From positions 1 through 64,000 of the forward strand of contig CANRNN010000004.1 of the NCBI GenBank assembly GCA_947632025.1: DNA of 64,000 nucleotides, given 5' to 3'. Made by a program: the position numbers and the translations under genes. Below the pieces are notes generated by a model that was given only the letters and a program-made list of their open reading frames with translations, was not told the DNA's origin and ran no database searches. Origin of the DNA: an uncultured Clostridia bacterium. Its GTDB lineage: Bacteria > Bacillota > Clostridia > Oscillospirales > Ruminococcaceae. This document shows positions 20,767 through 43,674 of the stretch, piece after piece; the first letter of the stretch is position 1; every line of letters starts with the position of its first letter.

Positions 20767-20833
20767 TGTCTTATCCTCCTTTTCGTTATACACAAAGGAA
20801 TAAATAAGCACAACGGCTCTTATTCGGTTATGT

Positions 20834-20931
20834 ACAGCGAGATGCGGAAACTCCACCGCAAGCGTACTGCTTTTCGTCCGTCCGACAACTCTCCGTTCGG
20901 GCGGCACTTAACGCGGAATTCCCTACTCTGT
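20834..20931 (-). promoter_or_regulatory. Tetrahydrofolate riboswitch
   Basis: The minus strand shows the THF-riboswitch blocks in order: AGAGTAG, CGCGTTAAGTG, a paired GACGAAAAGC region, TGCGGTGGA and CCGCATCTC. It lies 68 bases upstream of folT. No terminator was seen between aptamer and gene, so control is probably at translation start. Confidence 0.9.
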
Positions 20932-20935
20932 GCTT

Positions 20936-26020: not shown

Positions 26021-26071
26021 CGGAACTCCTTTGTGTTTCAATGTCCTTCGGCAGGGTAGCTAAGGATCGGG

Positions 26072-26227
26072 GGCACGGCGGCGGGGGGCGGGCGAATTTG
26101 CTCCGCAAATTCCGACCGTGAGCGCAGGCGCTGCTCTGCAGCGCGGTTTCCCGTGCTTTGCACGGGAAACTTTTAGCTGCGCTCGCGGTCAGCTCCCGCA
26201 CAGCGGGAGCGCCCGCCCCCGCCGCCC
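26072..26227. repeat. GC-rich branched structured element, copy A
   Basis: No gene fits the gap 26021-26359; it is dominated by one foldable element. An outer stem of about 17 bp (26078-26094 with 26210-26225) encloses three branches. P1 is 95-101/105-111 (offsets from 26000). P2 is 14 bp, 114-127/177-190, and carries two hairpins: P2a 128-134/138-144 and P2b 146-155/161-170. P3 is 193-199/203-209. Every stem is perfect apart from one bulge and one G-T pair. A second copy lies at 43511-43674. Confidence 0.88.
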
Positions 26228-26300
26228 GCAGCATTTAAGCCCCCAAACCGCCTCAGAAAACAGGGGCATTATCTTTTCGGGATACAGACTCTCGATACAG

Positions 26301-26334
26301 AAAAAGCAGACCCGGCAAACGCCGAGCCTGCTGC
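26301..26334 (-). terminator. rpmF terminator
   Basis: On the minus strand AGCAGGCTCGGC pairs imperfectly with GCCGGGTCTGCT and is followed by TTTT, 25 bp after the rpmF stop. Confidence 0.7.
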
Positions 26335-26359
26335 TCGTACAAACGTTATATCACAAAAA

Positions 26360-26545
26360 TCAGTCAGCGTCCTTAACGACTACGACCTTATCCTTGTAAT
26401 AACCGCAATTTCCGCAAACTCTGTGTGCAAGCTTAAGCTCACCGCAGTTTTTGCAGCGGGAGAAAGCGGGAGCGGAGAGCTTCCACACCGCGGAACGTCT
26501 CTTATCACGTCTTGCGCGAGATACTTTTCTCTTAGGAACTGCCAT
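26360..26545 (-). CDS. rpmF: 50S ribosomal protein L32
   Basis: Small zinc-ribbon ribosomal protein, 61 residues. It begins MAVPKRKVSRARRDKRR and has two Cys pairs (CKNC, CGNC), so this is the zinc-binding form. The leader between its promoter and start contains a heptanucleotide repeat array. The usual upstream YceD-family gene is absent. Confidence 0.98.
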   Translation of the reverse strand: MAVPKRKVSRARRDKRRSAVWKLSAPAFSRCKNCGELKLAHRVCGNCGYYKDKVVVVKDAD

Positions 26546-26560
26546 TATTGAAACCCCCTT

Positions 26561-26600
26561 CTAGAAGTAATATATTCAGAAGTAAGAAGTTAGAATTTAA
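26561..26600. repeat. Heptanucleotide repeat array in the rpmF leader
   Basis: CTAGAAG, TAAGAAG, TTAGAAT and related units lie between the rpmF promoter and its ribosome binding site; the mRNA strand reads CUUACUUCU. Confidence 0.6.
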
Positions 26601-26651
26601 CAGGCTAAACCGCCGACCTCTGCACTTCTTAACGGAAAAATCCTAAACAAT

Positions 26652-26680
26652 ATTATACCACACCCAAAGGTCTTTGTCAA
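26652..26680 (-). promoter_or_regulatory. rpmF promoter
   Basis: TTGACA (26675-26680), 17-bp spacer, TGG extension and TATAAT (26652-26657) on the minus strand. Confidence 0.8.
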
Positions 26681-26745
26681 GGGGATTTTAAAAATTTATG
26701 CAATTTTCACAAATAAACAGTCCCGAACTTGCCGCAAAGCGACTA

Positions 26746-27147
26746 TTATGCAAATTTTTTCACGTTTTCGGGAAGCTCGCTGTTATCAGCAGAAACGGTA
26801 AGCGTAACGGTCGTCGAGGGAGTTATCTTAACGAGCTTGTCGAACATCTCGCCTAACTTGTCATAATCCCTGCCCGTGATCTTAAGTGTAGCGTCCACGA
26901 AAATATCTGTGCAGTCGTGGTCGGACGAAAGTATACCCGCGATAAAGCCGTAGAACGCGTCTACTCCCTCCACAGCGTAATCCTCAATATTTATCAGACG
27001 AACCTTATAGGTAATGTCGGTGTTGAGAGAAGAACCCTTCTGGATTGCTACAACGTTTCCCTTTGATTCCTTTTCGGCAGCGTGAATAGCGTCGATAAGG
27101 ACCTTGGTCTTTCCCGAACCTCTTTTTCCCGTAATGATCTTAACCAT
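26746..27147 (-). CDS. Small P-loop ATP-binding protein, 133 aa
   Basis: The N-terminus has a clear Walker A motif, GKRGSGKT (residues 7-14), and an IFVDATLKI segment near residue 83 that could be Walker B. The rest alternates strands and helices. At 133 residues this is a minimal P-loop fold without further recognisable domains. The ATG at 27147 follows GAGG. It is 82 bp downstream of pgi in the same direction. Function unknown; ATP binding is the only supported activity. Confidence 0.8.
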   Translation of the reverse strand: MVKIITGKRGSGKTKVLIDAIHAAEKESKGNVVAIQKGSSLNTDITYKVRLINIEDYAVEGVDAFYGFIAGILSSDHDCTDIFVDATLKITGRDYDKLGEMFDKLVKITPSTTVTLTVSADNSELPENVKKFA

Positions 27148-27229
27148 AATATTTTCCTCCGTAGTCAGTTAAAAGTGAACAGTGCGAAACGCACCGCATT
27201 CGGTGTGTATGGATCCCGCGTCCAGTGTA

Positions 27230-28570
27230 TCAGAGTCCCAGTTTCTTTTCAAGCTCTGCTTTCTGAGCCTCGTAACCGGGCTTTCCGAGGAGCGCGAACA
27301 TATTTTTCTTATAGCTCTCTACTCCGGGCTGGTCGAACGGATTTACTCCGAGCATATATCCCGAAACAGCACACGCTTTCTCAAAGAAATAAATCAAAGA
27401 TCCAAGCTCGTATTCGTTAAGTTCGGGAACCTCTACCACGATATTCGGCGTTCCGCCCTCGGTATGAGCGATGACCGTTCCCTCAAACGCCTTGCGGTTT
27501 ACGATAGACATATTTTGATTTGAAAGGAAATTCAAACCGTCAATGTTGTTCGGGTCGTCCTTAAGGAAAAACTCCTTCTGCGGTTTTCCGAACTGAACGA
27601 CAGTTTCAAACATCACTCTTGAGCCGTCCTGAACAAATTGACCGAGTGAGTGAAGGTCTGTCGAGAACACCGCGCTTGACGGATAAAGACCCTTGTTGTC
27701 TTTGCCCTCGCTCTCACCGTAGAGCTGCTTCCACCACTCTGCCATCATCTGGAACGACGGTTCGTAGCTTACAAACATCTCAACGCTCTTTCCCTTTTTA
27801 TAAAGGAGCTGTCTGTACGCGGCGTATTTGTAGCAATCATTCTTTTCAAGATCGCACACGCTGTACTTCTCACGCGCGTCCGCTGCGCCTTTCATAAGAG
27901 CGTCAATATCGCACCCCGCGCACGCTATCGGCAAAAGTCCTACAGCCGTGAGGACTGAGAATCTTCCTCCCATGTCGTCGGGGATAACGAAAGTTTCGTA
28001 GCCCATCTTATCGGAGAGTTCCTTAAGAGTACCGCGAGCCTTATCGGTAGTCGCGTAGATTCTTCCCTTAGCGCCCTCCTCGCCGTATTTCTCAACGAGC
28101 ATATCGCGGAACACTCTGAACGCCAGAGCAGGCTCCGTAGTAGTACCGGACTTTGAGATGATATTCACGGAGAAATCACGACCCTCGACCAGCGAGATAA
28201 TCTCGCTCAGATACGTCGGGCTTAGGCTGCACCCTACGAAGTAGATATCGGGCGTATCCTTTTTGAGGGAGTTGTACAGTGACGAGCGCAGAGCCTCTAT
28301 AGCTGCTCTTGCGCCGAGATACGAGCCGCCTATTCCGATAACGATAAGCACGTCGCTGTCGCTTTTTATTTTAGCGGCGGCTTTCTTTATGCGCTCGAAC
28401 TCCTCCTTATCGTAATTTACGGGCAGATCCACCCAACCGAGGAAATCGTTTCCGAGTCCCTGTCTGCTTTCGAGAGTATCATGAGCGGCTTTTACGGCGG
28501 GAGCTATTCCCGCAAGCTCGTGATCTCTCACAAAGTCCTTAAGATATCTGTCGTCAAGCTTGATTGCCAT
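27230..28570 (-). CDS. pgi: Glucose-6-phosphate isomerase
   Basis: Interconverts glucose 6-phosphate and fructose 6-phosphate. The 446-residue protein has the SIS-fold motif [11 protein letters not shown] near residue 78, the serine-rich [10 protein letters not shown] motif and the C-terminal [16 protein letters not shown] segment. This is the shorter bacterial form. It has its own promoter at 28615-28643. Confidence 0.98.
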
Positions 28571-28614
28571 AGTATTATCCTCCTGAAGAAATTTATATCG
28601 GAATACCTAATCTT

Positions 28615-28643
28615 ATTATATATTAAATTTCAAAATTTTTCAA
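28615..28643 (-). promoter_or_regulatory. pgi promoter
   Basis: TTGAAA (28638-28643), 17-bp spacer and TATAAT (28615-28620) on the minus strand. Confidence 0.7.
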
Positions 28644-28720
28644 GGAGTTTTGTCCCTCTCGTTACATTTCGGTGAAATACCACTTTTTCACCATCGTTTT
28701 TTGTGCATTTTGCACAAAAA

Positions 28721-29677
28721 TTACGCAAAAGCAGTTTTTGTAATAACACCATTCTGCGAAAAAACCACCGTGGCGTCGGCAGGAAAGCTCGTTTCGGGAT
28801 TTTCCGACAATTCCTCGGCAAACTCGCGGAACGCCAGCCACTCGCGCATTTTGCCGAGAGTTTCCGGAGTTGACGCGATAAGCGAATCGTTCTTATGCGT
28901 TATTTTTACCGTACCGCCGCGCATTATCAGCCTTCCCGCAAGCGCGAGCGCCTTATCGCAGCAAACCGGCATTGCGTCCTCTGTGATATAAAGATTTGTC
29001 GCTGCGCTTCCGGCACTCTCGTCAAGACGCACCATAAGCTTGCTCTTTTTTGCTGACAGCTTATAATTTACCTTTCTCGGAGAATCTCCGGGAGTGTATT
29101 CGCGGTGTTCGTAGCCCGGCATACCTCCCGCAAGCGTTGTAACGCCCTCCTCCACTTCCTCTTCCTCGGACGGAAGAGTGTTCGGGATAATTTCCGGACC
29201 GTCATACTCAATGATTCTCGGCAAAGCCGCCATACAGGTTTCACTCACTACAGGAACTTTCAGGTACAGATCTCCAAGAAAATCGCTTATCTGCACCTTT
29301 TCAAGGCGCAGTCTGTTAAGTCCGCTGTGACTGAGCTTCATTTTGCCCACCGCTGAGGTCTTCCCCTTGAAAAGCAGCGCGGTCCTTATTCTTATCGGAG
29401 AATCCGCCATAAGACAAAGCTCGACAAACGGGATAAAACAAAAGCCCGTCTTTTTCAGCACTACTTCAAATTCCACTTCCGTTCCGCACTCCGCCGTTCC
29501 GGAAAGCTCCTTAAGCTCCACCGAAAAGCGCTTTTTTGAAATAAGCAGCAGTATTATCGAAACAATATTCGACCCCACTATGACATAAAGCAAAAGGCTT
29601 CCTATCCCGCCGTCGATAAACAGCATAAAAAAGGTCGCGCCCAGAGCAGCCGTAACAAATCCGAAAAGATTGCTCAT
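28721..29677 (-). CDS. DUF58-domain membrane protein
   Basis: A 318-residue protein with two N-terminal membrane spans (about residues 3-48), a beta-rich region, and the DUF58 signature in the second half (HREYTPGDSPRKVNYKLSA). DUF58 proteins commonly pair with MoxR ATPases and transglutaminase-like proteins. Here the ATG overlaps the transglutaminase stop (ATGA), but no MoxR gene is adjacent. Last gene of the purD operon. Role probably in envelope maturation, by family. Confidence 0.9.
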   Translation of the reverse strand: MSNLFGFVTAALGATFFMLFIDGGIGSLLLYVIVGSNIVSIILLLISKKRFSVELKELSGTAECGTEVEFEVVLKKTGFCFIPFVELCLMADSPIRIRTALLFKGKTSAVGKMKLSHSGLNRLRLEKVQISDFLGDLYLKVPVVSETCMAALPRIIEYDGPEIIPNTLPSEEEEVEEGVTTLAGGMPGYEHREYTPGDSPRKVNYKLSAKKSKLMVRLDESAGSAATNLYITEDAMPVCCDKALALAGRLIMRGGTVKITHKNDSLIASTPETLGKMREWLAFREFAEELSENPETSFPADATVVFSQNGVITKTAFA

Positions 29678-31857
29678 TTCTTCATACTCCTTTTCATTCT
29701 GTAAACGGCTTTATAGTCCTTGTACAGTTGCTTCCCGCTGATTTCGGGAGTCTTACCGCCGTACATCAGCTCGTTCGCCGCGCTTGTTATTTCGTCGGCT
29801 TCTTTTTCGAGCCGCAGACTTCTCGCGATTATCCCGCGCACCTCCTCTGCGGTGGCGCTCTTCGGGTCTATATCGGGAATTTTGCAGACCAGTTTTCTTG
29901 TGCGCAGATAAACCGCACGGATCTTATTTTCCTTGTTTTTGAATTGATAACCGACCGCAAAAACGGCTTCCGAAATCGGCTTTCTGAAAATGATCCCAAG
30001 AACCGTAAGGATCCCCGCTGCGGCTATGATAATAAATACTGTCCACCTCAAAGCCTCGCCGCTGTCAGCTGTTTCGGCAAATCGGGTGCCGTCTATTTCT
30101 ATCCAGCCCGCACCCTCAATATACGCGGTCGAAAACGCGTGCGCCTGTTCGGGCGTGACGACGTATCTTCCCATAAGATCCATTGAATCCTCCGAAAGCA
30201 CAAATCCCTCGGTATATCTCGCGGGTATTCCCGCGGCACGAAGAAGCAGTGTGGAAGCCGTCGCAAAATCTGTGCATATCCCTCTCCTGCTCTCGAAAAG
30301 GAAATACTCCGCTGTAGCCTCTCTCGGCACAAAATCCATATCGTATACAAATCCCGCTCCGCCGAACCACTTTTCTATCGCGAGAGCCTTTTCGTAATCT
30401 GTGGTAAGACCTGCTGTTATTTCGTCTGCGAGAGCCTGTATCCTTGCGGTCGATTCTTTCGGGTCGTATAGCGAGCGCTCCGAAACGGGAAGCTCCTTGA
30501 ATCCGTTATCGGAATAATATTCCATAGCAGAATCATACTCACTGTCAAACGCGTTGAACGTTATATAGTCGATAACGCCCTCTGAATACGCGTCGTTCAG
30601 AAGCTCCGAAAAATCCACCCGTTCAAGCATATTGACAAACGACTCGTTCACGGGCTCGGCAAGATAACTAACAAGATAGGACGCATTTTTCCCCATATTT
30701 TCCTTTGTGAAGATCTCATCTTTCGGATTGCGATAGGTGTTTTCGTCAAGATTCGTGATGCTTACGCCTGTGGTGCGGTTCGGGTGAAGCACGACCGCCG
30801 TGGAGCTTCCGTCTGTTACCCGGACAGTCATCTGAACGGGATAGCTTTCGCCCGCGTCCAGCGCGGTTATCTCCTCACGGTATTTTTCAAGTTTCCCCTC
30901 GCTTACGCCCTGTTTCAAAGAATCAACAAGACGCTTGAAGCTCAGTCTGCGGCTTGAGCTTTCCCAGTCGGCGTAACCCATAGAGTAATTTTCGTCGTAT
31001 GACCAACCGTCGTTTCCCTCATAAATATCAAACGACCAACGTATCACATTCTGCGGGTACATTGCGGAAACCACAAAAAGAGAATCCGTCGTAGGATTGT
31101 TGTTGCCTCTGTTCGGGATAGAGCTTTCGGAAAAATTCGTAAGCGACTGTCTGCCGTAGATAGAGGTCCTCCCCCTAAGAACGGTGTTCAGCCAATCGAG
31201 GTAAGGGGTATTGTTGACTCTCGGTAAAACGAAGAAAACCAACGACACTGCCAGTGCCGCTGTCGAAAGAGCGATGATCTTTCCCTTGTCCGGAGTTTTT
31301 TCCTCAAAATACACCGTATCAGTACTCTTTGCTCTCGAAGTTCCCATAGCGGCTGCGACAAATCCGATAACCAGAAGCAGAAGTATTCCCTCAGGAAGTC
31401 CTCCGAGAGTTCTCGCTCCGAGAATAAGCGGTATATACGCGGGCAGAAGCAGAAATCCCGGACGCGGCAGATACGCAGTGAAATAACACACGGGAAATGT
31501 CACGATAAGCGAAAAGACCGCTATCGTCACCGCCGCGTAAAACGGGTCGAAAAAATTCGACGTGGTAAACAGGAATTCCCAGTAAGCAGGCGAACGGTAC
31601 GGATTCGACGCGAACGCAAACAGCAGATATACGACAATAAAAATCCCCGTAAACGTTAAAAATGATATCAGCTTGCGCGTTCTTACCTTGTAAAAAAGAA
31701 AATATATCCCACAGCACAATGCCGTCATAATTATCGTACAGATCACAGCCTGACTTCTGCACCAGACGTACATAAGCGCCGCACTCAGCGCAAACAGATA
31801 GAACATCGCGGCAAAAACCGCCGTACCGTCATATTGTATTTTGATTTTTTTCTTCAT
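29674..31857 (-). CDS. Transglutaminase-like membrane protein
   Basis: A 727-residue protein with about six membrane spans in the first 210 residues, a large extracytoplasmic region, a transglutaminase-core domain and a further span near residue 605. The catalytic triad is visible: Cys528 (GICTDFA), His573 (QAHAF) and Asp589 (IDGT). This layout is the DUF3488/TgpA type. It sits between the RNA methylase gene and the DUF58 gene, 3 bp after the former and overlapping the latter. Confidence 0.92.
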   Translation of the reverse strand: MKKKIKIQYDGTAVFAAMFYLFALSAALMYVWCRSQAVICTIIMTALCCGIYFLFYKVRTRKLISFLTFTGIFIVVYLLFAFASNPYRSPAYWEFLFTTSNFFDPFYAAVTIAVFSLIVTFPVCYFTAYLPRPGFLLLPAYIPLILGARTLGGLPEGILLLLVIGFVAAAMGTSRAKSTDTVYFEEKTPDKGKIIALSTAALAVSLVFFVLPRVNNTPYLDWLNTVLRGRTSIYGRQSLTNFSESSIPNRGNNNPTTDSLFVVSAMYPQNVIRWSFDIYEGNDGWSYDENYSMGYADWESSSRRLSFKRLVDSLKQGVSEGKLEKYREEITALDAGESYPVQMTVRVTDGSSTAVVLHPNRTTGVSITNLDENTYRNPKDEIFTKENMGKNASYLVSYLAEPVNESFVNMLERVDFSELLNDAYSEGVIDYITFNAFDSEYDSAMEYYSDNGFKELPVSERSLYDPKESTARIQALADEITAGLTTDYEKALAIEKWFGGAGFVYDMDFVPREATAEYFLFESRRGICTDFATASTLLLRAAGIPARYTEGFVLSEDSMDLMGRYVVTPEQAHAFSTAYIEGAGWIEIDGTRFAETADSGEALRWTVFIIIAAAGILTVLGIIFRKPISEAVFAVGYQFKNKENKIRAVYLRTRKLVCKIPDIDPKSATAEEVRGIIARSLRLEKEADEITSAANELMYGGKTPEISGKQLYKDYKAVYRMKRSMKK

Positions 31858-31860
31858 AAA

Positions 31861-32976
31861 CTACTTATAATAGGTATAGAGCCTGCACATCAACATTCCG
31901 TTGTAAAGCTTGCGGTTTTTGTCCGCCTTCTGTCCGAAAATGCTTTCAAATTCCTCATCGGGAGTTATGACATAAAGCCCTCTCCCCTCAAGCGGCAGCA
32001 GCTTTCTGCCCATAATTCCGTAAAGTTCCCTTGCTTCGTTCACTTCGAGAAGTCTTTTTCCGTAGGGCGGATTGGTGAGTATCTTCACACGTTCGGGAAG
32101 TTTTTCCTGATCTCTTATATCACGTTTTTCGGCACGGATATATTTGCCCACACCTGCCTTTTTCGCGTTTTCGAGAGTCAGCCTTACGCACTCCTCGTCG
32201 TTATCAAAACCCAAAGCGGTAAAACCGCCGTCGGTGATAATTTCCGAACGAGCCTCCTCGCGGGCGTTTTTCCAAGCCTCGGCTGGAAGAAACTTCATTC
32301 GCTCTCCCGCGAATCTTCTGTTAAGTCCGGGGGCAATATTCAGAGCCTTGAACGCAGATTCGATAAGCAAAGTCCCCGAACCGCAGAACGGGTCAACGAC
32401 CTTATCCTCTGCCCGTACTCTCGCAATATCCGCTATTCCCGCCGCCAGTGTTTCGCGTATCGGCGCGGCGTTGCTGTCGCGGCGATAACCGCGCTTGTGA
32501 AGTCCCTCGCCGGACGTATCAAGCATAAGCGTCACTTCGTTCTTCATTATCGAAAAACGTATCTCACACATTTCTCCTGTTTCGGGAAGAATATTCAGAC
32601 CGTAAGTCTTTCCGAGATTTGCCGCCATAGCTTTCTTGACGATTTTCTGACAGGCAGGCACACTCGTAAGCTTTGAGTTCAGCGAGTGTCCTTTATTCGG
32701 GAATTTGTCGTTTTTTCTGATAAATTCCGACAGCGGAAGCTTTTTTATCCCCTCGAAAAGTTCGTCAAACGTTTCCGCACGGAACCTTCCAAGCACGACG
32801 CACACCCTTTCAGCGACCGACAGCGAAATATTCGCCAAAGCGCAAACCTTTGCGTCCCCCGAAAAGAATACCCGTCCGTCATTTACCTCGACGTTCTCGC
32901 CGCCTATTCGCTTTACCTCAAAGGAAAGCGTTTTCTCCAGCCCGAAATGGCACGGAGCGACATAATTATACTTCAT
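31861..32976 (-). CDS. THUMP-domain class I rRNA guanine methyltransferase
   Basis: A 371-residue RNA methylase of the RlmL/YpsC type: an N-terminal THUMP RNA-binding region (about residues 40-155) and a SAM-dependent methylase domain with DPFCGSGTLLIE and the catalytic motif TNPPYGKR. Probably makes N2-methylguanine in 23S rRNA. The start codon is 1 bp after the purD stop, so it is co-translated with purD. Confidence 0.93.
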   Translation of the reverse strand: MKYNYVAPCHFGLEKTLSFEVKRIGGENVEVNDGRVFFSGDAKVCALANISLSVAERVCVVLGRFRAETFDELFEGIKKLPLSEFIRKNDKFPNKGHSLNSKLTSVPACQKIVKKAMAANLGKTYGLNILPETGEMCEIRFSIMKNEVTLMLDTSGEGLHKRGYRRDSNAAPIRETLAAGIADIARVRAEDKVVDPFCGSGTLLIESAFKALNIAPGLNRRFAGERMKFLPAEAWKNAREEARSEIITDGGFTALGFDNDEECVRLTLENAKKAGVGKYIRAEKRDIRDQEKLPERVKILTNPPYGKRLLEVNEARELYGIMGRKLLPLEGRGLYVITPDEEFESIFGQKADKNRKLYNGMLMCRLYTYYK

Positions 32977-32977
32977 C

Positions 32978-34255
32978 TTACCTCTTACCCAGAGCCCTTG
33001 CGCCTATGTCTTTTCTGTAGTGAGCTTTTTCAAAGGAAATATTATCAACGGCTTTGTACGCCGAATCAAGAGCCTTTTCGAGAGTTTCCCCCGTACAGGT
33101 GACACCGAGAACACGTCCGCCCGATGTGATATATTTTCCGTTTTCGAGCTTTGTCCCCGCGTGATAGATGTAAGCGTCGGGGCATTGACCGTTTTCGTCA
33201 AGACCGGAAATTTCCTTGCCCGTTTCGTATTTTTCGGGATAGCCGCCCGACGCCATTACAACACACGCGCAGGAGTTACGGCTCCACTTGATGTCAAGCG
33301 CGTCCAGCCGCTCGTCCCATACTGCTTCCATAATATCGACAAGGTCGGTTTCAAGCAGCGGCAAAACGACCTGCGTTTCGGGGTCGCCGAAACGGCAGTT
33401 GTACTCGACAACTTTCGCGCCGTTTTTCGTCAGCATAAGTCCGAAGTACAGACACCCCTTAAACGGTCTGCCCTCAGCATTCATAGCGGCGATAGTGGGC
33501 TTAAAGATCTTCTCCATACATTCTGCGGCAATTTCGGGAGTATACAGCGGGTTCGGCGCGACAGTTCCCATGCCGCCCGTGTTTAAGCCCTCGTCGCCGT
33601 CGTTTGCGCGCTTGTGGTCCATGGAGGATACCATAGGCTTTACGGTTTTGCCATCCGTGAACGCAAGAACCGTCACCTCATTGCCATCCATAAACTCTTC
33701 GACAACTATCTCCGAGCCGCTCTTGCCGAATTTTCCGTCAACGAGCATAGAATGAACGGCAGCCTTTGCCTCGTCGAAATCTTTCGCGATAATAACGCCC
33801 TTTCCGAGAGCCAGTCCGTCCGCCTTAATGACCGCAGGATAGGAATTCTGCTTTTTAATGTATTCGACAGCCTTTTCCTCGTCGGTGAAAGTTTCGTAAG
33901 CCGCGGTAGGAATGCCGTATTTCTTCATAAGTCCCTTCGAGAACGCCTTGCTCCCCTCAAGAATAGCTGCGTTTGCGCACGGACCGAACGTTTTGAAGCC
34001 CTCGGCGTTCAGTTTGTCCACCATTCCCATAACAAGCGGGTCGTCGGGGGCTACAAATACATAATCGGGGCGGAGCTTTTTCGCAAGCTCGACAATTCCG
34101 TCAATATCGGTCGCCTTTACCGGAAAGCATTCCGCAAGCGCGGAAATTCCGCCGTTTCCGGGAGCGCAGTATAATTTTTCCACCTTAGGTGATTTTTTCA
34201 GCGCTGCCGCGATAGCGTGTTCGCGTCCGCCGCCGCCTACTATCAAAATGTTCAT
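32978..34255 (-). CDS. purD: Phosphoribosylamine-glycine ligase
   Basis: ATP-grasp enzyme of purine synthesis (GAR synthetase), 425 residues. It begins MNILIVGGGGREHA and has GLALGKGV, the family signature RFGDPETQ, and a normal C-terminus. First gene of a four-gene leftward operon (purD, RNA methylase, transglutaminase, DUF58). No other purine genes are nearby. Confidence 0.98.
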   Translation of the reverse strand: MNILIVGGGGREHAIAAALKKSPKVEKLYCAPGNGGISALAECFPVKATDIDGIVELAKKLRPDYVFVAPDDPLVMGMVDKLNAEGFKTFGPCANAAILEGSKAFSKGLMKKYGIPTAAYETFTDEEKAVEYIKKQNSYPAVIKADGLALGKGVIIAKDFDEAKAAVHSMLVDGKFGKSGSEIVVEEFMDGNEVTVLAFTDGKTVKPMVSSMDHKRANDGDEGLNTGGMGTVAPNPLYTPEIAAECMEKIFKPTIAAMNAEGRPFKGCLYFGLMLTKNGAKVVEYNCRFGDPETQVVLPLLETDLVDIMEAVWDERLDALDIKWSRNSCACVVMASGGYPEKYETGKEISGLDENGQCPDAYIYHAGTKLENGKYITSGGRVLGVTCTGETLEKALDSAYKAVDNISFEKAHYRKDIGARALGKR

Positions 34256-34302
34256 AATATCTCTCCTTAAAGTTAAAATTCCGAAAAATGCTATACATAT
34301 TT

Positions 34303-34331
34303 ATTATACAACATTTCACACAGGATTTCAA
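34303..34331 (-). promoter_or_regulatory. purD promoter
   Basis: TTGAAA (34326-34331), 17-bp spacer and TATAAT (34303-34308) on the minus strand. Confidence 0.75.
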
Positions 34332-34407
34332 GGGATTTTGGCGGTTTGCACATACGGTCGGCAAATTTCACAAATTTAACACAAAAAATTTGTGCAAAAG
34401 CTCCTCC

Positions 34408-34435
34408 TTGTTTTTCGGGAAGATTATGGTATAAT
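34408..34435 (+). promoter_or_regulatory. Promoter of the GH94 gene
   Basis: TTGTTT (34408-34413), 16-bp spacer, TGG extension and TATAAT (34430-34435). The -35 box is weak, the extended -10 is strong. Confidence 0.65.
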
Positions 34436-34514
34436 TATAAGAGGATCAGATAAGCCCTTTGAGGCGGCAAATACGAACGGCAAAGCCGCAAAAACAACTA
34501 CAAGGAGAAACAGT

Positions 34515-36893: not shown

Positions 36894-36915
36894 TCTGGCA
36901 ATAAGCAGAAACAAT

Positions 36916-36950
36916 AGTGCGCCGTTTTTTGTACGGCGCGCTAATTTTTT
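36916..36950 (+). terminator. Terminator of the GH94 gene
   Basis: AGTGCGCCGT/ACGGCGCGCT stem followed by eight T. Confidence 0.8.
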
Positions 36951-37002
36951 TTGACCAAGAAAAAATTTTTTGTGCAAAAATTATAAAATTATAAGTTTTT
37001 TC

Positions 37003-37031
37003 TTGACATACAAACTCAATAGGTGTAAAAT
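37003..37031 (+). promoter_or_regulatory. Promoter of the chemoreceptor gene
   Basis: TTGACA (37003-37008), 17-bp spacer, TAAAAT (37026-37031). Confidence 0.75.
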
Positions 37032-37082
37032 AATAATGTATTTTGAGGTTTATTACACATTTTATTCGGGAGGTAAACTGTT

Positions 37083-39068
37083 ATGAGAAAAAAGAAGAGC
37101 TTGCTTAAAAGTATCCTCATATGCTCGGTCGGAGTTCTCACGGCGGTCACGGTGGTGATCTGCGCGGTCTATTCTATCTGCGTAAACGCTCAGTACACAA
37201 AATCCATCAAAGCCAACCTGTTCCATACTGTCGCTAATGAGTCAGAAAAAATGAACACATGGTTTGAAAAACATATATCCCTCTCCGAAGAGCTGGCAAA
37301 AGCGGGAGTAAAGGAAAACCTCCACGGAAAAGAGTTGGAGGAATACCTGCTCGATGTGTCAATGGCTTCATCCGCTTCTATTATGAATAACTATTTCGCA
37401 TGGGAAACAGATCCTACGGGAGTTATGGCATGCGGAAAATATCCCGTAGACTCCGATTATGTTTCACAGGAGCGCGGTTGGTATAAAAGCGCCAAGGCGG
37501 CAGGAACGACTATAATAACCGCACCTTATGTCGACGCTATCACGGGAATGCTCGTCATTACAATAGCAACACCCGCCGTAGATTCCTCCGGAGCGGTCGT
37601 CGGAGTGTGCGGACTCGACGTCGAAATAAACGAGCTTGTATCCCTTACACAGAATCTCAAAGCCGACGGCAGCGGATACGCAATACTCGTGGACGATTCA
37701 AACAATATTGTGGTTGATGCTAAAAATCAGGATTATTCCTATCATATGGACGGCGAAACAGAAATCATTACCGCACTTGAATCGGTATCGCCCGCGTTTA
37801 CAAAAGCTCTCGGCGCTGTAGACAACACGAATATCGTTTCGGGCTATATCGACGGCAAGAAACAATATTTCCCGATAGTTTCCATCGGCGACACCAACTG
37901 GAAAGTCCTGTATGTCGCGGATTACGGCGAAGCTATAAAGCCCCTTAACGGCATCATAATTCTTACGATCGTCATTTCGGCAATATTCATAGCGCTCGGA
38001 ACGCTGTTCTTTATGTTCAAGTTTACGGAAAGACTTAAACCGCTCTCCCAGATAGAAGAAATAGTACAGCAGATGTCCAACGGCGTTCTCGACCACAAAT
38101 ACCCCAAGGATACGGGAGATGAAATAGGTACGATATGCAAATCTCTCGAAATTACGAATACCTCTCTCAAATCCTATATCGACGAGATAGGACGTATCCT
38201 TTCCGGAATGGCGGACGGAAACTTCCGCTATACGTCAAATACGGTGTTTAACGGAGAGTTTACGGCTATACAGACAAGTATGAAGAATATCTGCGAAGCT
38301 CTCGGAAAAACTTTCGAGAATTTCGGAAACGTCGCCGAGGAAATTTCCATGGGTTCAAGCAATGTTGCCAACGGCGCATCTGAACTTGCCAACTCCGCAA
38401 CGGACGAATCTCAGCTTGTAAGCGTCGTGCAGAACTCCGTCGAGGATATAAGCAAGCGCGTTTCGCAGTCGGCTGAAAACGCATTCGACGTGAAAAAGCG
38501 TTCGCAGGGTGCTAATCATACTGTACAGCAGTCCAACAAGAAAATGCAGGATATGCTCAATATTATGAACAGTATCTCTAAATCTGCAACAGAGATAGTC
38601 AAAATAAACGCGGCAATCGAGGATATTGCGTTCCAGACAAATATACTCGCGCTTAATGCGTCTATAGAGGCTGCAAGAGCAGGAGCGGCAGGAAAGGGCT
38701 TCGCCGTGGTCGCTGAAGAAGTCCGCAACCTTGCGTCCAAGTCAAGTGAGGCTTCCGCAAGTACAAGCGTCCTCATCGACCAAACCGTACAGTCCATAGG
38801 AAAAGGTATGGAAGCCGCAAACGAAACGGCAGCAATGCTCGACGAGGTGGTCGTGGAAACAGCTTCTATCACGGATTCCATTACAACGATCGCGGACGTT
38901 TCCGAGGAGCAGAAAAAAATGCTTGCGGAAATCGTCGTCAAGCTCGAAGAAGTTTCGGCAGTTATTCAGGCAACGGCGGCAACAGCCCAAGAAAGCGCTG
39001 CGACAAGCGAATCCCTCGACAGTCAGGTAGCTTCCTTGAAGAAAAACCTTAAGTCCTACAAGATCTGA
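37083..39068 (+). CDS. Methyl-accepting chemotaxis protein with dCache sensor
   Basis: A 661-residue receptor. A membrane span at about residues 10-32 is followed by an extracytoplasmic double-Cache domain (about 35-280, with ERGWYKSA and YVDAITG), a second span (about 285-308), HAMP, and the cytoplasmic signalling domain with the hairpin tip [14 protein letters not shown] near residue 520. It has the Cache form known for small organic ligands. No other chemotaxis gene is in the window; the SQEDIE-repeat protein at 61024 may be linked. Monocistronic with own promoter and terminator. Confidence 0.95.
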
Positions 39069-39080
39069 TTTTGAATATTT

Positions 39081-39111
39081 TCGCGGCAGGAGTATCTGCC
39101 GCGATTTTTTT
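39081..39111 (+). terminator. Terminator of the chemoreceptor gene
   Basis: TCGCGGCAG/CTGCCGCGA stem (9 bp) followed by seven T. Confidence 0.85.
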
Positions 39112-39123
39112 ACGGAATTGCTC

Positions 39124-39152
39124 TTTACAAAATGATAAATTTGGTGTAAAAT
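39124..39152 (+). promoter_or_regulatory. Promoter of the Rsm22-like/Sfp unit
   Basis: TTTACA (39124-39129), 17-bp spacer, TAAAAT (39147-39152). Confidence 0.65.
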
Positions 39153-39169
39153 AAAAGAGGGTGATTTTT

Positions 39170-40117
39170 GTGGAATTTCCGTCGGCAATAAGGGAAAGAA
39201 TTTCGGAGCTTTCGGAGGAATACGACATAAAAACGCTTATCCGAGCCGCAGAGCGGATCTCGGAGGGATACCGCTCGGAACAGGGATTTTCGGCTTCGTC
39301 AAGGGAAGAGATAATAGCCTATGCGTCAGTCAGAATGCCGGCGACTTTCGCGGCGGTATCACGGGCTCTGGAGCTTTCACTGGAGGTTTTCGGCGGAAAA
39401 ATTTCAACCGTCCTTGATGTCGGCGCGGGAACAGGTGCGGGGGCAATAGCCGCCGACCTGCTCACGGACTGCGAAAGGATCACCTGCCTTGAACGCGATG
39501 GGGATATGCTTTCGCTTGGAGAGGAATTCTGCGGGCTTGTGGGCGCTCCGACCGAATGGGTAAAGTACGATATTTCGGACGGAATTTCCGAACGGGCGGA
39601 GCTTGTAGTCTGTTCTTACTGCCTGAACGAGCTGAACGGCAAAACTCTTCGAGAAACGCTTGAAAGACTGGCAAATTCTACAGAAAAAATCCTTGTTATC
39701 GTCGAGCGCGGAACTCCAAAGGCGTTCGGCGAAATAAAAGAGATCCGAAAAACACTTGAAGCTTTCGGAATGAAAGTACTCGCGCCGTGTACTTTTTCGG
39801 GAGAGTGTAAACTCCCGCAGAAAGACTGGTGTCACTTCACGGCAAGGGCTTCGCGAACGGCGCTCCACAGGAAGCTGAAAAACGCCGACGCTCCGTATGA
39901 GGACGAGAAATTCTGTTTTCTGGCGATGACAAGAGAGGAAAATCCCGTGGAAAACAGTGCAAGGGTCCTACGTCACCCTATTATAGGTTCCGGAAAAATA
40001 ACGCTTGAACTTTGTTCCGCGGACGGGATCTCAACAAAGCTTATAACGCGAAAGACCCCGCTGTTCAAGCAGGCACGAAAGGCAAAAACGGGAGATCTGT
40101 TCCCTATGGAGAAATGA
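39170..40117 (+). CDS. Rsm22-family small-subunit rRNA methyltransferase-like protein
   Basis: A 315-residue protein of the Rsm22 family, which in mitochondria supports small-subunit maturation. It has a SAM-binding motif (LDVGAGTGAGA, about residue 85), SYCLNEL in the core, and a late Cys cluster (APCTF, GECKLP, DWCHF) that in the family binds an iron-sulfur cluster. The GTG at 39170 is chosen because GAGGGTGA precedes it at the right distance; an in-frame GTG at 39161 lies within that site. Followed 7 bp later by sfp. Confidence 0.88.
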   Translation: MEFPSAIRERISELSEEYDIKTLIRAAERISEGYRSEQGFSASSREEIIAYASVRMPATFAAVSRALELSLEVFGGKISTVLDVGAGTGAGAIAADLLTDCERITCLERDGDMLSLGEEFCGLVGAPTEWVKYDISDGISERAELVVCSYCLNELNGKTLRETLERLANSTEKILVIVERGTPKAFGEIKEIRKTLEAFGMKVLAPCTFSGECKLPQKDWCHFTARASRTALHRKLKNADAPYEDEKFCFLAMTREENPVENSARVLRHPIIGSGKITLELCSADGISTKLITRKTPLFKQARKAKTGDLFPMEK

Positions 40118-40124
40118 GGAGAAT

Positions 40125-40754
40125 ATGGAAATATTAGCACTTAAAGTCCCCGAAAATCTTACTTTTGCGGAAATTTCGGGATATATGGGGTGGCTCTCGC
40201 CCGCAAGAAGAAAATCAATTGAGAAGAAAAAAAACGAGGGCGATAAGATAAACGCTCTCTTGTCAAGACTGCTGATCTTGTCGGAAATTTCGCAGCGAAC
40301 GGGGCTTTCCGAAAAAAAGATATCGTTTCGCAAGGGAAGTCAAGGAAAACCGTATCTGAAAAACAGCGAACTTCAGTTTTCGCTTTCACATACCAAAGGC
40401 GCGATAGCCGCAGGCTTCGGCGATATAATGGAGCTTGGCGTGGACATTGAACGCAAGTCGCGGAAAATAAATCCGTCGTTGTACGGGCGGACACTATCGG
40501 CAGGGGAACTTGAAAAAACACATTCCGATGAGGATTTCCTGCGGTTCTGGGTGCGCAAGGAAGCGTTCCTGAAACGTCTGGGACTGGGGATAGCTCATGA
40601 CCTTAAGGAGATAAATACGCTTGTCGTTCCCGACACGGCTGTTTACGAATGGGATGATTTTTTTATCGGAGCTTCTGGAGAGGGCGCGGAAAGCGCAGCT
40701 GTCAAAGAAATTTCCCTTGATGAGCTGTTGGGGAGATTCGTAAAGATGCTGTAA
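40125..40754 (+). CDS. 4'-phosphopantetheinyl transferase (Sfp type)
   Basis: Transfers phosphopantetheine from CoA to a carrier protein. The 209-residue protein has the Sfp-type motifs GVDIE near residue 105 and FWVRKEAFLK near residue 140, both with the expected acidic metal ligands. No carrier protein, NRPS or PKS gene is in the window. The ATG at 40125 follows GAGGAG; co-transcribed with the Rsm22-like gene. Confidence 0.92.
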   Translation: MEILALKVPENLTFAEISGYMGWLSPARRKSIEKKKNEGDKINALLSRLLILSEISQRTGLSEKKISFRKGSQGKPYLKNSELQFSLSHTKGAIAAGFGDIMELGVDIERKSRKINPSLYGRTLSAGELEKTHSDEDFLRFWVRKEAFLKRLGLGIAHDLKEINTLVVPDTAVYEWDDFFIGASGEGAESAAVKEISLDELLGRFVKML

Positions 40755-40833
40755 TTTAATAAGTCACAGCCGCGCCATTTTTTGTCAAAATAATTAAAGG
40801 ACAGGGTTCAAAGTCAAATCTCTCTTTTTTGTC

Positions 40834-40862
40834 TTGAAAAAGATGTAAAGATATGTTATACT
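40834..40862 (+). promoter_or_regulatory. der operon promoter
   Basis: TTGAAA (40834-40839), 17-bp spacer, TGT extension, TATACT (40857-40862). Confidence 0.8.
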
Positions 40863-40896
40863 ATAATTATAGGTACAAAAGAACAGGAGAATAAAA

Positions 40897-42216
40897 ATGC
40901 AGCTGGTAGCAATTGTCGGTCGCCCGAACGTCGGGAAGTCCGCACTTTTTAATAAACTTGTCGGGAAAAGGCTCTCTATCGTTGATGATTCTCCGGGAGT
41001 TACCCGCGACAGGATCTACAGCAGGTGTGAGTGGCTCAACCGTGAGTTCACGCTTATAGATACGGGAGGCATCGAGCCGAAAACCGACGACGTTATTCTG
41101 GCGCAGATGCGTGAACAGGCAATGCTCGCGATAGAGTCGGCGGATTGTATAATCTTCGTCACGGATATTACAGCGGGGGTTACCGCAAACGACGCGGAAG
41201 TCGCCGCCATGCTCCGCAAAAGCGGTAAGCCCGTCGTGCTTGCAGTTAATAAGGACGACGATATCGGCGCTCCGCCGCCCGGATTTTACGAATTCTATAA
41301 TCTCGGTCTGGGAGATCCTATTTCCATTTCGGCGGTTCACGGTCACGGTACGGGCGATCTGCTTGAAGCCGTGTTCGACAAACTCCCTCCCGAAGAAGCC
41401 GAGCCTTACGAGGACGACGCTATAAAGGTTGCCGTTATCGGAAAACCGAACGTAGGAAAGTCCTCTCTTGTAAATCACATCACGGGTACCGAACGTTCAA
41501 TTGTTTCGGATATTGCAGGAACGACACGCGACGCTGTCGACAGCGAGGTCGTGCGCGGAGAAGACAAGTATATCTTTATCGACACGGCAGGTATGCGGCG
41601 CAAGGCAAAGGTCACTGAAAATATCGAACATTTCAGCGTGCTGAGAGCGCTTATGGCGGTCGACAGGGCTGACGTATGCGTGGTTATGATAGACGCTACG
41701 GTCGGATTTACGGAACAGGACAGCAAGGTCGCGGGGTATGCTCATGACAAAGGACGCGCCGTTGTCGTCGCCGTAAACAAATGGGACGCAGTCACAGACA
41801 AAACTGACAGCACTATGCGGGAATTTTCCAAAAAGCTTGAAAAGGATCTCGCGTTTATGAGCTATGCGCCGCTTGTGTTCATCTCGGCGAAAACGGGGCA
41901 GCGTATCGACAAACTGTTCGAGATGATAAAGCTCGTTCACGAACAGCACGGCAGACGTATCTCCACGGGAGTCCTCAACGATATGTTGAGTTATGCCACC
42001 TCGCGTGTTCAGCCCCCGTCCGACAAGGGCAAGCGTCTGAAACTCTATTATATGACGCAGGCTTCGGCAAATCCGCCGACGTTTGTTGTGTTCTGTAACA
42101 GCAAGGACCTGTTCCACTACTCGTATCAGAGATATATTGAAAATCAGATACGCGAAACGTTCGGGCTTGACAAAACTCCGATAAAGCTGCAAATACGCGA
42201 AAGAGGAGATCAATGA
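40897..42216 (+). CDS. der: Ribosome-assembly GTPase Der (EngA)
   Basis: Tandem-GTPase needed for 50S maturation, 439 residues. Domain 1 has GRPNVGKS (residues 7-14) and domain 2 GKPNVGKS near residue 183; both have DTGG/DTAG and NKxD motifs. A C-terminal KH-like domain follows (about 350-439). First of a der-hypothetical-plsY-gpsA series typical of Clostridia. Confidence 0.98.
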   Translation: MQLVAIVGRPNVGKSALFNKLVGKRLSIVDDSPGVTRDRIYSRCEWLNREFTLIDTGGIEPKTDDVILAQMREQAMLAIESADCIIFVTDITAGVTANDAEVAAMLRKSGKPVVLAVNKDDDIGAPPPGFYEFYNLGLGDPISISAVHGHGTGDLLEAVFDKLPPEEAEPYEDDAIKVAVIGKPNVGKSSLVNHITGTERSIVSDIAGTTRDAVDSEVVRGEDKYIFIDTAGMRRKAKVTENIEHFSVLRALMAVDRADVCVVMIDATVGFTEQDSKVAGYAHDKGRAVVVAVNKWDAVTDKTDSTMREFSKKLEKDLAFMSYAPLVFISAKTGQRIDKLFEMIKLVHEQHGRRISTGVLNDMLSYATSRVQPPSDKGKRLKLYYMTQASANPPTFVVFCNSKDLFHYSYQRYIENQIRETFGLDKTPIKLQIRERGDQ

Positions 42217-42764
42217 ACAGGATAATCTCGGATTTCCGCAGATATTATCGGAAAAAAATCATAATTTTCTGGGTGGAATTTGCGGTGATAGCTCTCGGAC
42301 TTGCGGTATCGGGAGTCATAGTCCGTGAAAAAACACGTCTAATGACGATAATAGTACTGGCGTCGCTGTTTGCGCTCACGCTGTGGAATATGCTGAGTAT
42401 CCTTGTCATAGCGCCGCGCGATTTCGGAAAAAGACTCTCGGAGCTTCCCGAAAAAACAAGGACTGAGATCATTTCGCAGTATCAATCTGCAAAGGATATG
42501 GGCGGGCGTTGGTTTTTGGAAGAATACGTTCTGTTCCACCGAAACAGGAAGATCGTACTTCTGAGGTACGATGAGATACGTTCGGCAGAGCCGAAGGGCT
42601 TTAATCTTGAACTCAAGCTGCAGGACGGAAAAACGGAACTTCTTCCGATAAAGCCCGACGAAAATCCTGCCGTGACAGTAGCTGTACTGCGAAGCCGCGA
42701 ACCGCGGATCAGCGTAATGCTGAACGGCAAGATAATCGAAAAAATGGAAAATAAGAGGAAATAA
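42213..42764 (+). CDS. Membrane protein between der and plsY, 183 aa
   Basis: An unrecognised 183-residue protein with two hydrophobic segments (about residues 18-38 and 44-66) and a cytoplasmic domain of mixed strands (about 85-183) that looks like a small PH- or YcxB-like fold. The ATG overlaps the der stop (ATGA), and plsY starts 1 bp after it ends, so it is tightly coupled in the operon. Confidence 0.8.
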   Translation: MNRIISDFRRYYRKKIIIFWVEFAVIALGLAVSGVIVREKTRLMTIIVLASLFALTLWNMLSILVIAPRDFGKRLSELPEKTRTEIISQYQSAKDMGGRWFLEEYVLFHRNRKIVLLRYDEIRSAEPKGFNLELKLQDGKTELLPIKPDENPAVTVAVLRSREPRISVMLNGKIIEKMENKRK

Positions 42765-42765
42765 A

Positions 42766-43428
42766 ATGATTTGGCTGTGTTATGGGATAATGCTTCTCGT
42801 GCCGTATCTTCTGGCGGGAATAAACACGTCTATAATCGTCGCGAAAGTGAAAACAGGCAAGGACATTCGCACAATGGGCAGCGGAAACGCGGGGCTTACG
42901 AATACTCTGCGCGTACTTGGAAAAGGCGCGGCAGGAATAGTGCTGCTGGGCGATGTTTCAAAAGCGGCGATAGCGGTGCTGCTGGTCAGAGCAGCGTTCA
43001 GATTTTTCGGCGGAATTGACACGACCGACCCGACATCGGATATGACGTGGGTAGAGTATATAGCGGTATTTATGGCGATAGTGGGACATTGTTTTCCGAT
43101 CTATTACGGATTTAAGGGCGGAAAGGGCGTTCTGGCGGCTATCTCGGCGATTTTCGTTCTTGACTGGAGAATCGCTTGTATCCTTCTCGGAATTTTCATT
43201 GTTCTCGTTGTAATAACAAGATACGTTTCGCTTGGCAGTATTGTCGCTTCGTCCTGTTTCTGCATAGCGTCGCCGCTGTTCGGGTATTTTCTCGACCACG
43301 ACCCCGCGTTTATCGCAAATGCAGTTATAGCTGCGTTCTGCGGAGGGCTTATTGTTTTCAGGCACAGGGGAAACATTAAGCGCCTTGTAACTCATACGGA
43401 GAAAAAGCTCGGAGAAAAAGCAAAATAG
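42766..43428 (+). CDS. plsY: Acyl-phosphate glycerol-3-phosphate acyltransferase
   Basis: Membrane enzyme that makes lysophosphatidic acid from acyl phosphate and glycerol 3-phosphate. The 220-residue protein has the three PlsY motifs: GSGNAGLTNTLRVLG near residue 39, GHCFPIYYGFKGGKGV near residue 107, and the GGLIVFRHRGNIKRL ending. About five to six spans. Next to gpsA, which supplies glycerol 3-phosphate, though a structured element separates them. Confidence 0.97.
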   Translation: MIWLCYGIMLLVPYLLAGINTSIIVAKVKTGKDIRTMGSGNAGLTNTLRVLGKGAAGIVLLGDVSKAAIAVLLVRAAFRFFGGIDTTDPTSDMTWVEYIAVFMAIVGHCFPIYYGFKGGKGVLAAISAIFVLDWRIACILLGIFIVLVVITRYVSLGSIVASSCFCIASPLFGYFLDHDPAFIANAVIAAFCGGLIVFRHRGNIKRLVTHTEKKLGEKAK

Positions 43429-43510
43429 CAGATCCTACAACAACTAACGTGATTTGTACCCCGCCTGCCGAATAAGGCGGATATCCCGCTCAAACGCACA
43501 ACCTATTCAG

Positions 43511-43674
43511 GGGCTGTCGGTGGGGGGCGGGCGGATTTGCGAAGCAAATCCTAAGCCGCAAGCGCAAACGCTGCGCTGCAGCGAGCATTTCCCGCGTAAA
43601 ACGCGGGAAATGCCATATGTTGCGCTTGCGGCTTTGCTCCCGCGAAGCGGGAGCGCCCGCCCCCCGCCGCAGCT
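43511..43674. repeat. GC-rich branched structured element, copy B
   Basis: The 337-bp gap between plsY and gpsA contains no gene. The element repeats the fold of copy A. The outer stem is 43513-43533/43654-43673. P1 is 534-540/544-550 (offsets from 43000). P2 is 15 bp, 553-567/620-634, with hairpins P2a 569-574/578-583 and P2b 585-596/602-613. P3 is 637-643/647-653. Several stem positions differ from copy A on both strands at once, keeping pairing. Confidence 0.88.

Follow-up and report, generated by a model that had tools for sequence, protein, structure and literature searches.

The window, a stretch of 64,000 nucleotides from an uncultured Clostridia bacterium (contig CANRNN010000004.1), carries two copies of a branched palindromic element between genes, here called A and B (Table 1). 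The name of one neighbour of copy A, which we take to be dnaE, is based upon a PHP domain match and the length of its open reading frame. An earlier note on this DNA had proposed that both copies share one fold, made of an outer stem, a hairpin P1, a long stem P2 carrying hairpins P2a and P2b, and a hairpin P3, and folding bears this out. The minimum free energies of A and B, computed with about 10 flanking bases per side, are -126.7 and -134.5 kcal/mol (z -10.0 and -11.9), and for each copy 0/200 dinucleotide shuffles were as stable as the native sequence. The note had also listed pairs that change on both sides between the copies. In the A/B alignment, the P2b changes from T-A to C-G and from G-C to A-T are both present, together with a third, C-G to T-A, that had been overlooked. 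The A-T to G-C change in P1 exists, though at the second pair of the arm rather than the closing pair, and the four changes in P2 appear when that arm is aligned by stem, where a plain alignment inserts a one-base gap. The loops differ freely, as described.

Table 1. Positions of copies A and B and of their arms in the window.
Feature	Position	Strand	Remarks
Copy A, whole element	26072..26227	+	between rpmF and dnaE, both genes on the - strand
Copy A, outer stem, 5' strand, conserved inner 10 bp	26084..26093	+	pairs with 26211-26220; outward extension with one bulge
Copy A, arm P1, 8 bp	26094..26112	+	loop TCC
Copy A, arm P2, stem ~14 bp	26114..26190	+	encloses P2a (26128-26144) and P2b (26146-26170)
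Copy A, arm P3, 8 bp	26192..26210	+	loop ACA
Copy A, outer stem, 3' strand	26211..26220	+	
Copy B, whole element	43511..43674	+	between plsY and gpsA; orthologous copies in G009 and G058
Copy B, outer stem, 5' strand	43522..43532	+	pairs with 43655-43665; stem extends outward
Copy B, arm P1, 8 bp	43533..43551	+	loop GAA
Copy B, arm P2, stem 15 bp	43553..43634	+	encloses P2a (43569-43583) and P2b (43585-43613); interior inverted relative to orthologous copies
Copy B, arm P3, 8 bp	43636..43654	+	loop GAA
Copy B, outer stem, 3' strand	43655..43665	+	

An absence of further copies from related genomes, which the earlier note would have counted against the element, is not what we find: the host genome (G000) holds five copies of the window family, and two relatives from the rabbit gut (G009 and G058) hold three each. 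The plsY-gpsA and FtsK/radical-SAM sites are filled in all three species. Site D (gyrA/GyrI-like) is filled in G000 only and cleanly empty in both relatives; about 245 bases (counted by hand) lie in G000 between a left flank ending in GGAACA and the right flank TTTGGAGG, and in G009 and G058 these flanks nearly abut. D is the one clean empty site, and at two others the element is absent: the glycosyltransferase site E has it in G000 only, and the thiD leader site in G009 and G058 only. At the copy A locus, dnaE is likewise missing in the two relatives. In two orthologous sets the interior of P2 is inverted. The window family thus shows two of the features expected of a mobile, MITE-like palindromic repeat, namely dispersed copies at unrelated intergenic sites, and orthologous sites both filled and empty (cleanly at D, by absence at E and thiD).

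Copies A and B belong to a wider class, defined by shape, that is invisible from the window alone. A core model found elements of the same plan and unrelated sequence within the genus, first in genomes G016 and G024; what they share is one outer stem and three hairpins around a four-way junction. In the plain form, the three arms are hairpins of mostly 7-9 bp with loops of 3-4 bases; the window form has an extended middle arm, P2, that branches into two hairpins, or into three in copy E. The junction has no unpaired base in 28 of 47 elements. Model R2, used for the genus, placed the element in 15/43 genomes at E ≤ 1e-3, or 11/39 in a more independent count, R2 having been built with copies of G009, G016, G024 and G058; 24 of the 43 had no match at E ≤ 0.1. 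One genome, G055, gave at least 109 scored matches, both strands counted. Model R3, used for family, order and phylum, found the element more rarely in the family (3/40 other genomes) and not in 100 other genomes of the phylum, in searches that are not strictly comparable, the candidates scored per genome being 109 for the genus, 114 for the family, 15 for the order and 46 for the phylum. The copies used to build models R1 to R3 are among those that the models recover, and calibration was short.

The three-hairpin plan also emerged from pattern finders. A strict finder, which required at least two perfect hairpins under one stem, gave 29 matches in 94 kb of G055 and one in 275 kb of DNA that no model had chosen, each with exactly three hairpins. 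A looser finder (outer stem of at least 5 bp) returned two hairpins in 22 of 69 distinct clusters; we do not treat these as a two-hairpin type, since they may be pieces of three-hairpin elements and the strict finder gave three in 30/30. The F1 copies of G055 lie mainly outside open reading frames of at least 150 aa in 31 of 33 cases, such frames covering 68% of those regions.

Pairing is strongly conserved across copies. In a nine-copy alignment of the core, hand-trimmed to the structure in a way that favours the result, 96.9% of 351 cells are paired; 29 cells show a change in both partners and 2 in one partner only, and 0/500 shuffles reached either the pairing percentage or the count of two-sided changes. 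The wider set of same-plan elements has 98.0% of 1538 cells paired, with two-sided changes in 514 cells and one-sided changes in 9; one set, A6, contains both strands of the same places. Rates of change were compared between two species at two orthologous sites, a and b, as substitutions (one gap column per site omitted), with flank numbers that derive from flank identities and include coding bases. Paired bases differ at 9/230 positions, flanks at 53/592 and unpaired bases at 13/49. Stems are slower than flanks (p 0.012), nearly all of this coming from site a (1/112), while stems at site b (8/118) are hardly below the flanks; unpaired bases are faster than flanks (p 6e-4). Including a third, hand-added site gives stems at 9/330 and flanks at 75/896 (p 3e-4), a stronger result than the cleaner count of a and b. 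The earlier note had read the changes between A and B as selection on base pairing. Conserved pairing and covariation stand, and selection is the less firm part.

Conserved pairing of this kind could reflect a structured RNA, transcribed in leaders or between genes and acting in cis, for example as a 3' exonuclease shield for the upstream mRNA or by tuning the next gene. The lower rate in paired than in unpaired bases of the orthologous copies fits such an RNA, as does the position of A, B and C, each between co-directional genes. The thiD copies of G009 and G058 fit as well: a TPP riboswitch with a terminator-like hairpin precedes them and the start codon follows, which probably places them in the transcript leader. 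The pairs themselves argue against it. G-U pairs make up 13/693 in the predicted folds of 11 copies and 10/98 in three riboswitch-type RNAs of the window (p 1.6e-4), a control that consists of Rfam consensus pairs (9 further consensus pairs do not pair) and that we used because only one tRNA lay in the DNA examined. The two strands have almost the same folding potential; the strand of copy A given here runs antisense to its genes, although the opposite strand can fold as well. The F1 copies of G055 are oriented at random, 16 with and 20 against the local genes, so that no strand bias of the sort expected from an RNA or from lagging-strand use is seen, and of the 23 that lie between two genes 10 are in co-directional, 9 in convergent and 4 in divergent settings. 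A structured RNA would be expected to tolerate G-U pairs and to keep a fixed strand relative to genes, and neither is found here; the differences in sites between close species also speak against it.

The loops point the same way. DNA has its own rule for extraordinarily stable mini-hairpins, d(cGNNAg), and the elements prefer GNA/GNNA loops with a C-G closing pair, most strongly in G055: 90/135 of their loops are of this type or its complement, compared with 15/85 in other hairpins, and outside G055 the figure is 26/54 (p 2e-4). In the window, 1/4 loops of copy A and 2/4 of copy B fit GNA or its complement. The third base of GNNA is C in 27, T in 15, A in 15 and G in 0, mostly a pyrimidine and unlike the GNRA loops of RNA, a result that rests on G055, which supplies 53/57 of these loops from copies that share descent. 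The four-base loops of G055 thus follow the DNA rule and not the RNA rule. No Rfam family matched the elements at the gathering cut-off, in keeping with the earlier note, which had not recognised A and B as a known RNA family, and we reject membership of one; at relaxed thresholds A and B had three matches, with E of 0.35 to 0.36 and well short of the cut-offs. Together, the evidence on conserved pairing leans to DNA hairpins over RNA, and we regard a structured RNA as unlikely. Of the two readings that the earlier note left standing, structured RNA or hairpin mobile element, the second is the one strengthened by the further copies.

The elements could also be a mutational by-product: template switching from one arm of an imperfect palindrome to the other would keep the stems perfect, and the elements would be functionless and unable to move by themselves. 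Such correction would account for the great excess of two-sided over one-sided changes (514 against 9 cells), for unpaired bases that outpace the flanks, for the flipped P2 interior in two orthologous sets and for the stems of site b, which change nearly as fast as their flanks. However, if correction were the only force, stems would not be expected to change more slowly than flanks, as they do for a and b together and above all at site a. Nor does it explain why copies of common sequence are dispersed, why site D is empty in the relatives or why the hairpins so steadily number three. We consider this quite improbable as the whole account. That the element benefits the host, and has spread and persisted for that reason, as a binding site for a chromosome protein (a junction-binding or nucleoid protein, or gyrase) or as a transcription insulator, would agree with the intergenic bias in G055 and with two sites kept across three species, but is very unlikely given that matches range from none in 24/43 genomes (E ≤ 0.1) to very many in one, that sites differ between close species and that families share shape and not sequence.

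We therefore favour, as somewhat the more probable reading, that A and B represent a short, palindromic and mobile DNA element of about 80-175 bp that acts as folded single-stranded DNA, because copies are dispersed and intergenic, sites are filled or empty, unrelated sequences follow the same plan, G-U pairs are scarce, loops show a preference, P2 is inverted in places and orientation is random. The small number of copies in the window family, 3-5 per genome, is few for an active element and counts against mobility. In the mechanism that we envisage, replication or the extrusion of a cruciform would expose a single strand, which would fold into a four-way junction of outer stem and three arms that leaves hardly any base unpaired, or none, and a putative enzyme would recognise this folded strand while copying or moving the element. 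Copies that could not fold would fail to spread, which would keep the stems perfect, and copying from arm to arm may help.

A more tentative possibility, and a doubtful one, is that the elements form a class of DNA defined by shape only, in which a folded single strand makes a perfect four-way (Holliday-like) junction and three of its arms are mini-hairpins. The putative enzyme would then read the junction and the GNA/GNNA loops instead of the sequence, and unrelated families in the genus would converge on the cloverleaf or retain it. If mobility by shape is true, these elements offer a direct route to a junction-reading enzyme of transposition or replication in little-studied gut Clostridia. 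Covariation of paired bases is normally taken as a sign of functional RNA, and here it is very strong in a DNA-like family; what sets this family apart from RNA is its low share of G-U pairs, the symmetry between its strands and its loop rule, and other orphan "structured RNAs" could be re-examined by the same three features.

Several known systems come close. Pneumococcal BOX, ERIC, NEMIS and mitochondrial double-hairpin elements are short, mobile or presumed mobile, and strongly folding, as are the elements here, but to our knowledge none has a four-way junction of three like arms or a shape common to unrelated sequences. The d(GCGAAGC) and d(cGNNAg) mini-hairpins share the C-G closing pair and GNA/GNNA loops, but are chemical motifs and not genomic elements; in the excerpts available, the DNA hairpin CGCGAAGCG is described as stable (PMC10527192), and DNA mini-hairpins as having d(GNA) triloops and a C-G closing pair (PMC5815330). 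REP/BIME/REPIN sequences are, in the sections available of the sources, short extragenic palindromic repeats, dispersed and usually in more than 100 copies per genome (PMC2817692), and REP elements are thought to be moved by RAYTs of the IS200/IS605 family (PMC3733652). The element here is likewise short, dispersed, extragenic and palindromic, but a REP is one palindrome of 20-40 bp, compared with three hairpins under one outer stem. The CGTC-tagged REPs, which include Rickettsia palindromic elements, are described in part of the same source as dispersed palindromes without a dedicated transposase (PMC3733652), a likeness to our element, but are single hairpins with a fixed tag, in contrast to a four-way junction whose sequence varies between families. 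Two thirds of the stem-loop families of Cozzuto et al. have a common predicted fold and are intergenic, according to the portion of that paper available (PMC2267715), and so resemble ours; the HMMs that define them describe sequence, a distinction of description that leaves room for a multi-arm member among them. Among the matches listed for literature on palindromic repeats and DNA loops, a set with subscription papers mostly outside it, titles and the beginnings of abstracts name no such element.

RAYT (Y1_Tnp) transposases act on single-stranded DNA. In draft genomes of the genus, Y1_Tnp (PF01797) matched 9 of 43, comprising 2/15 carriers of the element (E ≤ 1e-3) and 7/28 others (p 0.46). 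The two carriers are G000, with one match that has one stop counted inside, and G051, with a partial match; G055, G016, G009, G058, G045, G054 and G047 gave none, although absence from draft genomes is not proof. With the transposase in only 2/15 carriers, we reject membership of the REP/RAYT system. An origin in phages or plasmids was likewise rejected, since two exact patterns had 0 matches in viral contigs, copy A had none in phages and copy B none in plasmids. Flanks of the window family at different sites have only the outer stem in common, plus 14-base matches at chance level, and so no shared ends, and target duplications were neither found for this family nor seen at D. Inspection by eye showed a 9-base inverted pair, CGTGATTTT/AAAATCACG, only at site D.

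The two copies in the window, A and B, are real and fold as the earlier note described, with an outer stem, hairpin P1, a long P2 arm forked into P2a and P2b, and hairpin P3; in stability both folds greatly exceed shuffled sequence. The paired two-sided changes reported between them are visible in their alignment, no Rfam family fits either copy, in line with the view that this was no known RNA family, and the covariance-model search of related genomes called for beforehand, here with a model of the element core (R1), found more copies, with matches in 5 of the 43 genus genomes at E<=0.01. The claim of a structured element with conserved pairing stands, and its reading as RNA is not favoured: the element is most likely a mobile DNA cloverleaf rather than a new RNA.

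Coordinates of the elements and neighbouring features discussed in the text (L numbers are genome stretches).
Feature	Stretch	Positions	Neighbouring genes
T-box leader	window	4677-4923	
SAM riboswitch	window	5054-5218	
THF riboswitch	window	20833-20932	
Site A locus	window	25421-26545	
Copy A	window	26072-26227	rpmF, dnaE
Copy B	window	43511-43674	plsY, gpsA
TPP riboswitch and terminator-like hairpin	L027	261-531	thiD
Nested palindromes of G049 and G018	L039; L042	150-326; 1200-1500	gpsA
Three-hairpin element of G054	L077	937-1023	dnaE

The host genome (G000) holds five copies: A, B, C (contig C7), D (contig C11) and E (contig C2). A pattern search of the genus for the outer stem and P1, allowing up to 3 mismatches, found them in 3 of 43 genomes, namely the host and two relatives, G009 and G058. 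Among public genomes, the exact pattern turned up in 5 stretches belonging to two MAGs with the name 'uncultured Clostridia bacterium isolate Lapin', apparently these same relatives; going by the word alone, we take 'Lapin' to indicate rabbit. The outer stem, P1 and P3 are common to all 11 copies examined. Between P1 and P3, most carry a long P2 stem with two hairpins, copy E has three hairpins, and the thiD copies of G009 and G058 have a single short one. Because this interval varies, the core reduces to one outer stem and three arms that meet in a four-way junction; in the window form the middle arm is enlarged and forked. Across the nine copies that carry P2, pairing holds in 96.9% of 351 cells, with two-sided changes in 29 cells and one-sided changes in 2.

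Outside the window family, R1 matched elements in two genomes (G016 and G024) whose sequence is unrelated and whose plan is identical, an outer stem carrying three perfect hairpins whose loops are 3-4 bases long. A second model, R2, matched 19 of the 43 genus genomes at E<=0.1 and 15 at E<=1e-3. At least 109 of its matches were scored in one genome, G055, and since one place can score on both strands these represent 55 places or more. The G055 regions examined contain two sequence families: F1, whose conserved tail runs to roughly 120 bases, and F2, located next to F1. Over 48 distinct rows from both strands, 98.0% of 1538 cells are paired, and departures from the commonest pair are two-sided in 514 cells and one-sided in 9. 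A strict finder, which requires only two or more perfect hairpins under one stem of at least 6 bp and misses A and B because of their forked middle arm, found 29 elements in 94 kb of G055, each with three hairpins. In 275 kb of DNA picked without the models it found a single element, again with three, and in five mononucleotide shuffles of the 275 kb none. With looser criteria, the junction was free of unpaired bases in 28 of 47 three-hairpin elements, and the loop-closing pair was C-G in 137 of 141 cases. The shape is rarer outside the genus, in a set of searches that were not uniform in model or scoring depth: it was matched in 3 of 40 further family genomes, in 2 genomes from other genera out of 295 in the order (E<=1e-4, 15 candidates scored per genome) and in 0 of 100 further phylum genomes.

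In G055 (L114-L120) the intergenic DNA is a mosaic pieced together from repeat modules: F1 and its tail, F2, short repeats like CAGCACTATGCACTGTAAACTGTTA and a hairpin around ACTCCTACGGAGT. Several of the model matches fall at the ends of contigs (C14, C18, C23, C26 and C34), so the assembly is probably broken by these repeats. Other palindromes, long and nested but imperfect in their arms, were seen upstream of gpsA in G049 and next to that gene in G018.

The pairing of the element is DNA-like, with G-U pairs making up 13 of 693 in 11 copies; in the window's own T-box, THF and SAM elements they make up 10 of 98 (p 1.6e-4). The two strands had near-equal folding energies as DNA in five examples, the core model matches the element on both strands, and F1 is oriented with local genes in 16 cases and against them in 20, in co-directional (10), convergent (9) and divergent (4) contexts. 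In G055 the loops are DNA-like as well. Loops 2 and 3 of F1 are nearly always G..A (GACA, GTAA, GTCA, GTTA and others) with free middle bases, the first loop being of mixed sequence. DNA tetraloops follow a d(cGNNAg) rule. GNA, GNNA or a complement is found in 90 of 135 loops of 45 elements, as against 15 of 85 other hairpins, and in 26 of 54 loops outside G055; A fits in 1 of 4 loops and B in 2 of 4. The third base of GNNA is C in 27, T in 15, A in 15 and G in 0, which is not the GNRA rule of RNA, 53 of these 57 loops coming from G055. PMC5815330 describes d(GNA) triloops closed by a C-G pair as stable, and PMC10527192 does the same for the CGCGAAGCG hairpin.

Change in place could be followed at two orthologous sites, a and b, between G009 and G058, where 9 of 230 paired, 53 of 592 flanking and 13 of 49 unpaired bases differ. 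Stems differ less than flanks over the two sites (p 0.012); the difference is clear at site a (1 of 112) and barely present at site b (8 of 118), where compensated changes occur. Unpaired bases differ more than flanks (p 6e-4). This points to mutation-prone loops, as expected of single strands that are exposed. The P2 interior fits far better when inverted: copy B against its partner G9b scores 52.0 inverted and 23.5 direct, and copy C against G9a 52.5 and 31.0, with shuffles at about 18 to 20 (SD about 5). Inverted alignments outscore direct ones in both orthologous sets, so the stretch enclosed by the P2 arms has been turned round, which is a DNA event.

Occupancy was compared among G000, G009 and G058, with neighbouring genes named by Pfam where tested. 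Sites B and C (FtsK / radical SAM) are filled in all three, D (gyrA / GyrI-like) and E (downstream of a glycosyltransferase and a short ORF) in G000 only, and the thiD leader in G009 and G058 only. At D, G000 has about 245 extra, element-bearing bases relative to a short sequence on which G009 and G058 agree. By eye, the DNA upstream of gpsA showed no such element in 27 other relatives, 11 more matching genomes lying outside this count. Neither target duplication nor common ends were found for the window family, and the known REP-element transposase occurs in 2 of 15 carrier genomes versus 7 of 28 others. The analysis establishes the family, its shape, the difference in occupancy at D, the DNA-like pairing and, for G055, the DNA-like loops; we infer that the element acts as a folded single strand, which a putative enzyme would recognise.

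The insertion at D directly adjoins the palindrome TGTTCCACGTGGAACA, presumably parS-like, between gyrA and the GyrI-like gene; CCGAACNTTTGTTCGG, which we take to be LexA-box-like, also lies between them, upstream of the latter (L131, L133, L134). The site A locus of G009 and G058 (L141, L142) is without both the element and dnaE, rpmF being followed by another gene, presumably pfkA. The N-terminus of the G000 dnaE has no match in either genome, so dnaE seems to have been lost, moved or left unassembled in their lineage. G054 carries a three-hairpin element about 480 bases upstream of dnaE, the gene that also neighbours copy A, possibly by chance. A TPP riboswitch (an Rfam match in L027) and a terminator-like hairpin lie upstream of thiD (also L030 and L137); in G009 and G058 the cloverleaf sits between these and the thiD start codon, and G000 is without it there.
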